From Sipunculus nudus (taxonomy: Eukaryota > Annelida > Sipuncula > Golfingiida > Sipunculidae): 64,000 nucleotides of DNA. Of the stretch, positions 20,215 through 42,092 are shown piece after piece (the first letter of the stretch is position 1; each line of letters starts with the position of its first letter). The position numbers were made by a program, and so were the translations under genes. The notes beneath the pieces are model-generated. The model was not told the DNA's origin. It ran no database searches and saw only the letters and a list, made by a program, of their open reading frames with translations. Location of the stretch: positions 40,129,079-40,193,078 of the forward strand of contig CM049309.1 of the NCBI GenBank assembly GCA_026874595.1, written 5' to 3'.

Positions 20215-20824
20215 TTAATGAGCATCCGTGCCACTCAACACCTCTCCAGCGGTGGCATACAAACTTGTATTCTCGGGTTGGTCAAAAGAGGCTACCTTTT
20301 CGTAAGGTTTATTAACTTCAGCATAAACACACCCTACATCGGGTTTATCAACGGGTGTTTTCTTGACTTGCGCATACACAGGCCACACATTTGGTTTATC
20401 AGCAGACGTTTTATTCACTTTAGCATAAACAGGGCCCACATCGGGTTCAACAGCAGACGTTTTATTAACTTGAGCATAAACAGGGCCCCCATCGGATTTA
20501 TCAGCAACTTTTTTATTAACTTGAGCATACACGGGTCCGACATCGGGCTCAATCTGATTCCTATATGCAGCTTTCGGTTTTCTAACCTCTGTGTACAGGG
20601 GCGCTTGTTGCATCATTTCCGTTTGATATCCTGGCATCGGCTCACCTACACATGCGTACTGCTGGGTTTCATCTGAGCTTCCGGTGCCGCCGTCATGAAC
20701 TGTGTCGTACATCACGTCCACCCGTTCATCGTCAGCGCTTCTGTTCAGGGTTCTGAATGATACACTTGGGGGCTGGTAGTTCACTCCAGGGGCAGGGTCG
20801 TTTTTCCTGCGAGGCTTCCACCGC
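20215..20824 (-). CDS. Gene B tail exon: cytoplasmic domain with tandem YxxV motifs
   Basis: The exon begins after TTTACTTCAG|G and continues the frame of the TM exon (…YHR then [19 protein letters not shown]). The basic WKPRRK stretch fits the stop-transfer side of a membrane span. Tyrosine motifs in order: NYQPP, VMYDTV (fits the ITIM pattern V-x-Y-x-x-V), QYACV, PLYTEV, then five tandem 17-aa repeats of the form [17 protein letters not shown], with YAQV, YAQV, YAKV, YAQV and YAEV cores, then SLYATA near the end (GTDAH, TAA). The repeats correspond to a 51-bp in-frame minisatellite. YxxV/L motifs of this kind bind SH2 domains of phosphatases or adaptors in known receptors; the actual partner here is unknown. 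Confidence 0.85.
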
Positions 20825-21448
20825 CTGAAGTAAAAAAAAATGTAAATTTCATGTTCCACTTCTGTTCAAGGTATGAACTAGCAAATGAACTGAAGACTGA
20901 TAAATGACAGCTGATAAATAAGTCATAAAAAAATTACCCGAGTTAAAAGATTGGCATGATTAAAAGTACAGCCCTATCCGTTGCGGCCAATTGTTGCACA
21001 AGGCTTTTACTTACAAAAATAGAAGAGCCACCCATGGCGGCATTTTTGTCACCCTGAGATACTTATGAACTCATGCATACTGACCTGTGATAGTAGAAGC
21101 AGGACACAGCAGCACCTACCAGCAATATCACAAACAACGAAAGTAGAACCAACCCAATCACCAATCCTGAATGATATATTATTAGTACAATGTATCCATT
21201 ATTGATTTATTTTTGATTATCAATCATTTATATCACAAATGTGTACGTTTTTCCTAATGTCTGGCATACAGATGTAATTATACATTGCAAACATGCTTAA
21301 ATACTACTCAGTTTAGAGGCGTGAAATACTATTCAAACCCAAAAGACTTTTCATAACATCACAGAGAAAAATGAAGGCCTTAATTGGACTAAAATTTGTT
21401 ACAATACCTCCACCAAGTTTCCCTCAAACGTTGTTGCACTCATACAGG

Positions 21449-21523
<75 letters not shown>

Positions 21524-39926: not shown

Positions 39927-39980
<54 letters not shown>

Positions 39981-42092
39981 ATTAACATACCATGCATGTG
40001 CGTGTCTCAATAACTAAATATGCACATAATTATAGATATAATATAGACACTGAGTATATTAAAGTAATCATACAAATTATGATATCTGTAATTATGATGG
40101 ACAAATCTGTCATGGCAGCCATTGCACAGTTTCAAAATCATCGAAAAAGCAACAGATTTACGCCTCATGTCCTAATTTACTTAGTTATTTTATGTAGACT
40201 TTGCAACTGAATATATCTTTTTTAAATTGCAAGGAATGTATTGTATGAAATAGAAAAGTGTTTGCTTTTCCTGTATTAACATATGAAACTGTTCACAGTG
40301 GAATAACATATATATTTCTTGGGTCCTTATCTCAGTCTGCATGCGTATTCAATTACTGTGGTATTTATAACTTGGTATTTTACAAGTGACTCTATCATAG
40401 GTGTTCACATATATATTTTTTTATATATCACATATTTGGTAAAGATTGCTCTTTTTCATCCGTTACATAAACAAGTAACACTGAATTGTTTGAATGGAAA
40501 TATAGAATTTTTTTTTTTTTTTTTTAAATTAACACAGGAAGAGAGTATGCATTGTCGTGTTCATTTTAAACATAACTCAGTTATCATGAACCTACCTGTA
40601 TAAAGCCAAGAAACCCTTCGTAAAACCTCATTTTCTGTTGGTATCTGATCCAAGAGGTCGTAGTTATCTTTTTCTCTATTGGTAGTTTAGTGTTACCGTC
40701 ACAAAGTATTGTCTTGTCGATTCTGACATCGAAAAAGCAGTCAAGTATGGTCAACTTTATTGCCATCCTTTCTTGTAGCTCGAACTTAAATCCACAATAA
40801 CTTGGAGTTTCCGCGGAGGGGTAGTTTTCATTAGCGATGACGCCATACCCGCTATGCTCGACAGCTAGGTTTATTAGAGATTCACATCTCCTGTGCACGT
40901 CAGCTTTCGGGATGCACTTCACGGTTACATCCACTGTGTAAATAGGTCTCTTCGAAAGACAATACTCAGTTTTCTTGAGCCGACAATAACTGTTGAAGTT
41001 GCATATTTTATTCAATAGTCCTATACCGAATTCCTGACACGGATGGGTCCCTTCGTGAATCGTTTTATACTTGACCTCCGTGACAACAACCACTTTCCCT
41101 TCAGTGCATGAGATAGGTTCTCCCTTGCCAGTCAATCTTACTTGTACAGCTTGCGAAAAGATATTATGCGAAAAAAATCTTATTGCAATTAACATTAAAT
41201 ACTGTTTCTCTGTGAATAATGATATAATCATTATTTTTTTCAAAAGTGTGTTTAACCTATATTAGTATATTTTAATGCTTGTTGGATTTCAGATAACCAT
41301 TTATGCATTTTATACCTTTTTGGGCATCTGTTTAGGCTATAATAGCCAATTTTAAGAAAATAACATCATAATTAAATGTGTTCTTATTAATTAAAGATTT
41401 GTACATGATGATGTTTGTTTTCCTGGATAATTCAATTAGGTAACTCGCATTCAGAAGCAACCTTTTCCATGCAACCGATAAGGTTTATCTTGTGAAAGGG
41501 TTTAATGGGTATAACGGTTCGACAGTCGACCAAGGAAGTCATGTCTTACTGGCCATGAGTATTTTTTAAGCTACTCAACAAACATTGTTTTTTGTACTGA
41601 TGATAATAATATACCCACACACCCATTGGTACACGGGCAGATTTTCTTTCATCTTCGGCTACATATACTTAATTATTCCTATAACGACTCATACATATAT
41701 ACCGTATATCCTGGTACAAACCAAAAGTAAATGCTACTCTGTAAACTCAAGTACGTTTGCGCTATCATCAGATAGCAACACGACAGATGGTTTAGTCAAA
41801 ATTTCAAAATTTTGTGTTGGTTATTGTTTACAGCCCCATACATAGCCCCAGAGAATAATTACCCTTGTGCATAATTAAACTTCGATTAAATTCAATAACC
41901 CTGCACAACATACTCTATACAGGGCGTAATGGACAATTATCAACAAATGAACCACCAAACATTTGTGCCGAAACACTTATATCCAGTTAAATGCCATTAG
42001 TAACACTTACGTTCCGGGACGTCTTGCTGGCTAAATTGCACAAACAACAAACGGATCACCAAAACCTGGATGAATCCTTCCCTTGCCGCCAT
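37775..42092 (-). CDS. Receptor gene C: lectin/CUB-like type I membrane protein with YxxV tail
   Basis: Six exons on the minus strand: 42011-42092 (signal peptide), 40592-41149 (ectodomain), 39825-39917 and 39628-39696 (stalk), 38734-38815 (transmembrane), 37775-38417 (tail). Joined, they give 1527 nt, an open frame of 508 aa plus stop, with phases 1,1,1,1,2. Layout: signal peptide about 1-28, ectodomain to about 213, stalk 214-267, membrane span about 269-291, tail to 508. The ectodomain donor is the weakest point. GTTCAT at 40591 keeps the family phase, whereas the stronger-looking GTAGGT at 40595 would put the next exon into a stop. The stalk differs in sequence from gene B's array. It is the best-supported complete gene in the window. 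Function inferred: surface recognition with tyrosine-based signalling. Confidence 0.8.
38734..38815 (-). CDS. Gene C transmembrane exon
   Basis: An 82-nt exon, acceptor TTCTAG|GACTGG and donor CACAG|GTCAGT. It encodes [20 protein letters not shown] then SYFLYHR. Same length and phases as in gene B. Confidence 0.88.
39628..39696 (-). CDS. Gene C stalk exon 2
   Basis: A 69-nt exon between TTGTATAG|AG and TTCTG|GTAAAA, phase 1-1. It encodes ESTVHDTSGLSTGKGQAGDQ then RNSG. Hydrophilic, with Ser/Thr/Gly; links stalk 1 to the membrane span. Confidence 0.78.
39825..39917 (-). CDS. Gene C stalk exon 1
   Basis: A 93-nt exon between ATACCCCAG|GT and CACACAG|GTAGAG, phase 1-1. Reads GPFVKDYTTYHFETTARIHN then LTNTKTVSTHTG, with one N-glycosylation sequon (NLT) and many Thr. 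A homologous, open exon survives in copy D at 48775-48870. Confidence 0.78.
39930..39977. repeat. (AT)n microsatellite
   Basis: AT run directly upstream of the stalk exon 1 acceptor of gene C. Confidence 0.95.
40592..41149 (-). CDS. Gene C ectodomain exon: SUEL-lectin-like plus CUB-like
   Basis: Acceptor TTCGCAAG|CT at 41151-41150. Sequence opens VQVRLTGKGEPISC and keeps all ten cysteines of the family. The first half runs KVVVVTEVKYKT, HPC, GLLNKIC, SYC, EYC, and VTVKC. The second half runs GYGVIANENYPSA, SYCGFKF, LTILDC, ILCD and ends EGFLGFIQ. SUEL-like and CUB-like assignments rest on cysteine order and on the GxIANENYP...GFxxx framework. The long spacer of AT-rich intron between this and stalk 1 has no other exon. 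Confidence 0.82.
42011..42092 (-). CDS. Gene C signal-peptide exon
   Basis: ATG at 42092-42090. Encodes MAAREGFIQVLVIRLLFVQF then SQQDVPE, ending in phase 1 at C|GTAAGT. The GFIQ core aligns with B and G. Upstream sequence (42190-42280) recurs at 50430-50520 in front of decayed copy D, marking a shared 5' flank. Confidence 0.8.

Follow-up and report, generated by a model that had tools for sequence, protein, structure and literature searches.

What kind of protein does the gene cluster in this part of the Sipunculus nudus genome encode, and how much of the cluster still works? We examined a window of 64,000 nucleotides (C4:40129079-40193078; contig CM049309.1 of assembly GCA_026874595.1), in which a first-pass annotation had proposed two complete receptor genes (B and C), the start of a third (G), and several decayed copies. 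Positions below are window coordinates unless they are prefixed C4, C7, and so on. Judged from the sequence, gene B and its relatives probably encode fast-evolving single-pass type I receptors with a SUEL-CUB ectodomain and a tyrosine-motif tail that would signal through SH2 proteins.

Gene B proved complete, as had been proposed. Its six exons (minus strand, 20215-25898) join into an open frame of 493 amino acids, and its introns are all GT-AG with phases 1, 1, 1, 1, and 2. The joined model begins with a leader peptide exon (25820-25898) that has a GT donor, ends in phase 1, and is 80% identical to the leader exon of G. It is followed by a one-exon ectodomain with SUEL-like and CUB-like parts and ten conserved cysteines (24571-25134; phase 1-1), two Ser/Thr-rich stalk exons (24168-24245 and 23864-23932; both flanked by AG/GT and of phase 1-1), a transmembrane (TM) exon (21085-21166; phase 1-2), and a cytoplasmic tail exon with nine Tyr-x-x-[VLI] motifs (20215-20824). 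Ser and Thr make up 37% of the stalk in B and 33% in C, which agrees with the Thr-rich stalk described earlier. Repeat and homology searches placed an array of 3.8 units of 253 bases in the long intron of B (21794-22815, minus strand), carrying four extra copies of the stalk exon. At the corresponding position none of these four offers a GT donor in phase, and only two stalk copies of the gene appear usable.

All ten cysteines that the first-pass annotation had called conserved are invariant or at least 90% conserved in an alignment of 16 C4 members. In a wider alignment of 25 rows, this is true of nine, including the four in the CUB part, and the tenth is present in the majority. Neither SUEL_Lectin (PF02140; curated Pfam cut-off, 31.4 bits) nor CUB (PF00431; cut-off, 21.4 bits), the two models that had been singled out, scored above its cut-off in B, C, G, the 16 C4 members, or 8 distant members, and B and C gave no match to either. 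The best CUB score was that of G (18.8 bits; E = 0.0021). At E ≤ 1, CUB was touched in 6 of the 16 C4 members and SUEL in none, and among the 8 distant members CUB was matched weakly in three and SUEL weakly in one. The SUEL match of this last member (L080) runs the full length of the profile (1-80/80; 12.2 bits) and its CUB match is partial; neither reaches the cut-off. Of the 96 SUEL matches in the genome, none falls inside the window.

Profile comparisons were more informative. A profile search of PDB was led by the CUB domain of C1s (E = 0.005). With hhalign, 25 family rows reached 94.3% against 10 SUEL rows of the same genome (score, 42.5; E = 1e-7) and 96.6% against 14 CUB rows (score, 56.7), and the latter value rose to 96.9% (score, 58.7; E = 1.7e-10) when a row in the wrong frame (L087) was dropped. 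Swapped SUEL and CUB pairings remained at <0.5%. The best scores in 200 column shuffles were 19.7 for SUEL and 18.6 for CUB; in 200 shuffles that kept the cysteine columns they were 18.4 and 19.5, and reversed profiles scored 9.0 and 13.6. The SUEL comparison still gave 88.5% after removal of two SUEL-CUB genes, and six C7 rows alone gave 92.7% (score, 39.1). These comparisons support a SUEL-like and CUB-like ancestry of the ectodomain, more weakly for SUEL and there mainly through distant relatives. The domain assignment of the first-pass annotation is thus upheld by the controlled profile-profile comparisons and by the presence of canonical SUEL-CUB genes elsewhere in the genome, although both domains stay below their Pfam cut-offs.

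The same cannot be said of lectin-type recognition, which had also been proposed. Rhamnose is held in mouse latrophilin-1 by Glu42, Tyr63, Gly117, and Lys120 (PMC2430599). Among the 25 family rows, YG[RH] was found in one and DPC and K[YF][ML] in none, compared with 8/8 SUEL rows for each motif; a bare GR was left in 7/25. We take Tyr63, Gly117, and Lys120 of latrophilin-1 to lie in the YGR and DPC-GT-KY motifs. Because the YGR and DPC...KY[LM] motifs are mostly lost, sugar binding by the ectodomain is doubtful and a protein ligand seems more likely.

The TM exon and the YxxV motifs of the tail are real. In B, 9 of the 13 tail tyrosines lie in Y-x-x-[VLI], against a shuffle mean of 2.0, and 0 of 2000 shuffles reached nine. 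Across 15 tails (three near-identical pairs included; 2000 shuffles per tail), the count ranged from 4 to 9 and exceeded the shuffle mean each time; for no tail was it reached in more than 18 of the 2000 shuffles. Part of the excess in B is due to an internal 51-base tandem repeat, and because this repeat makes part of the motif count, the shuffle test is no independent proof. A better argument is that the C4:59 and C7 tails conserve the motifs; YxxV motifs are retained in a tail just 34% identical to that of B. At least one strict immunoreceptor tyrosine-based inhibitory motif (ITIM), which we take to be [VILS]xYxx[VLI], stands behind the single TM segment in 14 of the 15 tails (exactly one in 12, three in two, none in the remaining one), usually as VMYxT[VI]. 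The C7 tail also carries TVYAEI, which resembles what we assume to be the immunoreceptor tyrosine-based switch motif. The analogy to ITIM receptors drawn earlier fits this one strict motif in most tails but was overdrawn for the other motifs, which are mostly PxYxxV.

We estimated the ratio of nonsynonymous to synonymous substitution rates (dN/dS), without a significance test, for 20 ectodomain pairs and 15 tail pairs. Ectodomain values were 0.18 to 0.64 in the ten pairs with dS > 0.2 (one more was saturated), and tail values were 0.37 to 0.65 in the seven pairs with dS > 0.3. Younger pairs scattered from 0.44 to 1.55. Of the three pairs that B, L011, and G form, two had a dN/dS near 1 in the SUEL-like part (0.99 and 1.12) but of 0.46 and 0.28 in the CUB part, a hint that the SUEL-like part may be under relaxed or changing selection; the third of these pairs and four further ones showed no such difference (7 of 36 pairs shown).

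The family extends far beyond the window. In the 1.43-Gb genome, the B ectodomain query gave 82 matches and a C7-member query 54, of which 10 were new; merged by hand-typed coordinates, they form 70 ectodomain loci, a lower bound per search tool that near-identical second copies may instead inflate. An open exon, defined as one match that spans 147 codons or more without a stop, is present at 38 of them. The range C4:40.03-40.61 Mb (∼0.6 Mb) holds 39 of the 70 loci; 8 lie near C4:59.2 Mb, 11 on C7, and the remaining 12 elsewhere on C2, C4, C8, C9, and C17. One gene at C4:59 Mb and one on C7 repeat the ectodomain, TM, and tail exons in the order and intron phases of B, and their ectodomains are 36% and 29% identical to that of B, respectively. 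The tail search gave 49 genome matches. A TM exon lies upstream of the tail at 29 of the 30 tail loci fetched, equivalent to 21 of 22 distinct tails (the exception is L047). Near the distinct tails, all 21 TM exons have an AG acceptor and 20 a visible GT donor; at the other (L046) the match ends early. Nine of the 49 tail matches belong to an open frame of 585 amino acids on C1, which we rejected as a family tail since it is a minisatellite with a 51-base unit. This minisatellite (L101; C1:108.893-108.896 Mb) can be read without a stop for 585 codons on one strand and for 509 on the opposite one.

Near-identical second copies of the exons of B, C, and G are found ∼195 to 198 kb away, with 97 to 99% identity over stretches in which noncoding DNA is included. 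Either a recent segmental duplication or a haplotype that was not collapsed may account for them. Repeats that contain the family occupy C4:40.07-40.11 and 40.15-40.19 Mb, with copies ∼235 kb and 195 to 198 kb away (the DNA compared was that of the 195- to 198-kb set).

Canonical SUEL-then-CUB pairs, with domains above the Pfam cut-offs, are present at C8:74.61 and C6:0.58 Mb. At the C8 locus (L098 and L069; C8:74.604-74.615 Mb), the pair is followed by a Sushi exon (21.1 bits against a cut-off of 20.7) and by a TM exon that begins GLVLGL and runs from phase 1 to phase 2, like the GLVIGL exon of B. The locus thus shares with the family the order SUEL then CUB and a phase 1-2 TM exon beginning GLVxGL, and differs from it in that its domains stand above cut-off, on separate exons, and with a Sushi domain present. 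It also has a long tail exon, in which no resemblance to the family tails was seen by eye. The SUEL, CUB, Sushi, and TM exons at C8 would form one gene, and a locus of this kind is a plausible ancestral type. In the simplest history, the family would descend from a receptor of this type that lost its Sushi domain and whose SUEL and CUB domains were fused in a single exon. SUEL matches number 96 genome-wide at E ≤ 0.001, many of them clustered on C7, C12, C14, and C16, and the domain seems to have undergone strong expansion here.

Among B, C, and G, only B is without a visible lesion. Gene C, five exons within 37775-42092 (minus strand), follows the plan of B with one stalk exon in place of two. 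The joined model consists of a leader (42011-42092), an ectodomain (40592-41149), a stalk (39825-39917), a TM (38734-38815), and a tail exon (37775-38417). Compared with three paralogues, C lacks 1 base directly before the usual ectodomain donor, and compared with two close paralogues its tail lacks 2 bases close to the end. The frame is open only if a displaced donor four bases further on is used, and the 2-base loss in the tail gives an unrelated C-terminus. Because of these two losses gene C is probably decaying, and its description as complete was not borne out. The start of G does lie inside the window on the plus strand, with its leader exon (62499-62576) and an open ectodomain exon (63210-63791; start approximate), both identified by homology. 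The tail assigned to G by position and strand lies outside the window (C4:40197440-40198074) and is split over two frames, unlike the open tail next to its near copy (tail loci compared: L051, L052, and L049).

As we read these genes, the ectodomain of a surface protein would consist of a SUEL-type domain in degenerate form and, after it, a CUB domain, with a short stalk rich in Ser and Thr keeping it clear of the membrane. SH2 proteins (phosphatases or adaptors) would be recruited by the tail through its four to nine YxxV-type tyrosines if these are phosphorylated. The family may have arisen from a SUEL-CUB(-Sushi)-TM receptor, spread through local duplication, and evolved by birth and death.

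Several results weigh against this reading, and some of them favor other explanations. The leader of C has an Arg inside its hydrophobic stretch and, judged by eye, is not textbook, and in most tail motifs position -2 is not hydrophobic, as it would be in an ITIM. Against SUEL, the 15 C4 rows alone gave 16% (score, 22.2, barely above all shuffles), and a first trial of 16 family rows with 8 SUEL rows gave 8%; the case for SUEL ancestry leans on the distant relatives because the C4 rows alone score weakly and the C7 rows strongly. The decoys consisted of shuffles, reversal, and swapped pairing only, with no other Cys-rich family, and AlphaFold2 on an alignment of three window sequences returned a mean predicted local distance difference test (pLDDT) score of 34. 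Such a model, the lack of any match above the Pfam cut-offs, and the absence of the canonical sugar loop would also suit a new Cys-rich fold that merely resembles SUEL and CUB. We find this improbable, since the profile comparisons beat the shuffles, those that keep the cysteine columns included, and the genome contains canonical SUEL-CUB genes, one at a locus with a phase-matching TM exon. The symmetrical phase 1-1 exons could be freely skipped, so that the ectodomain and the TM and tail exons might belong to separate transcripts with secreted SUEL-CUB forms as the main product, but exon order and phases are alike in genes of three clusters, which makes this highly improbable.

C and G illustrate that an open ectodomain exon can belong to a gene that is not intact, and 32 of the 70 ectodomain loci are broken or partial. 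Together with the two lesions of C, the two-frame tail of G, and the dN/dS scatter of the young pairs, this is what would be expected if most of the array were a graveyard, left by a receptor family that was once active and is now decaying, with B among its few working members. The 38 open ectodomain exons, the dN/dS below 1 in diverged pairs, and the splice sites kept at the TM exons near distinct tails argue otherwise, and we regard a graveyard as distinctly unlikely. As for function, genes of immunity, allorecognition, or gamete recognition generally tend, more than those of axon guidance, to form large young clusters in which many copies are broken. A family of developmental, neuronal, or gamete receptors, not immune ones, is on this ground unlikely, although latrophilin and EVA-1, both active in nervous systems, contain SUEL-type domains (PMC2430599). 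An immune or allorecognition role for the SUEL-CUB receptors is itself a guess from the genomic pattern. Its boldest form, a polymorphic self/non-self complex built on SUEL-CUB rather than Ig, with copy number and stalk exons in flux and independent of the Ig-based ITIM clusters, we consider unlikely.

The rest of the window contains decayed pieces of the family, called by tblastn at E ≤ 0.01. Remnant A (591-11385, minus strand) has a decayed ectodomain (10917-11385), a stalk-exon-like piece (9647-9730), a TM-exon-like piece (8074-8163; E = 0.002), and a decayed tail (591-1099). Also on the minus strand are decayed ectodomain and tail pieces at 35185-35732 (E = 4e-5 and 0.005), decayed TM (E = 0.008) and ectodomain pieces at 45075-48014, and a decayed ectodomain at 55143-55515; a decayed tail piece lies on the plus strand at 60228-60432. 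At least six decayed copies had been claimed; the decayed pieces are real, but our own grouping gives five remnants, and another could give six. Open frames of a likely mobile element occupy 26609-28645 (minus strand), with a tyrosine recombinase (Phage_integrase, PF00589; 30.6 bits; cut-off, 27.1) whose adjoining frames had no Pfam match above cut-off. The element resembles those of the DIRS/Crypton type.

Hydractinia Alr and vertebrate KIR/LILR/Siglec-type receptors have Ig-like ectodomains, and the latter are clustered genes with tyrosine-motif tails. The present family resembles both in its clustering and tyrosine-motif tails and is set apart from them here by their descriptions, not by sequence. 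Tyrosine motifs of Alr are mentioned in a paper on Botryllus FcoR (PMC12065747). There, the FcoR allorecognition locus is described as 53 loci encoding type I TM proteins with an Ig and Sushi ectodomain and long tails with ITIM, hemITAM, or YxxI/L/V core motifs, and the exons between ectodomain and TM are alternatively spliced (PMC12065747). As far as that description goes, the two systems share clustered multigene type I TM receptors with tyrosine-motif tails, and the stalk exons, of which just two look usable in B, stand at the place of the alternatively spliced FcoR exons. They differ in the ectodomain, which here is SUEL-like plus CUB, and no Ig family was among the Pfam matches of the members scanned (B, C, G, the 16 C4 members, and the 8 distant ones). 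Latrophilin and EVA-1 also have a SUEL-type domain in a membrane receptor; to our knowledge, neither has a CUB domain or a YxxV tail. These rhamnose-binding lectin (RBL, or SUEL) receptors have seven TM segments or a single one with two RBL domains, and the sugar residues of the receptor forms are often substituted (PMC2430599).

No description of this family was found among the listed matches of the open-access literature, subscription papers and eukaryote protein databases being outside the scope of the search. A SUEL-CUB ectodomain with a tyrosine-motif tail is new as a combination and familiar as a kind, and these dozens of rapidly duplicating and decaying genes look like a counterpart, so far undescribed, of the receptor clusters of immunity or self-recognition. 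If expressed and signaling, they would constitute a large family of tyrosine-motif receptors that recognize their ligands with neither Ig nor C-type lectin domains, and would show that an unrelated ectodomain can give rise to clustered ITIM-type receptors. Concrete genes are now at hand for studies of ligand, polymorphism, and blood-cell expression.

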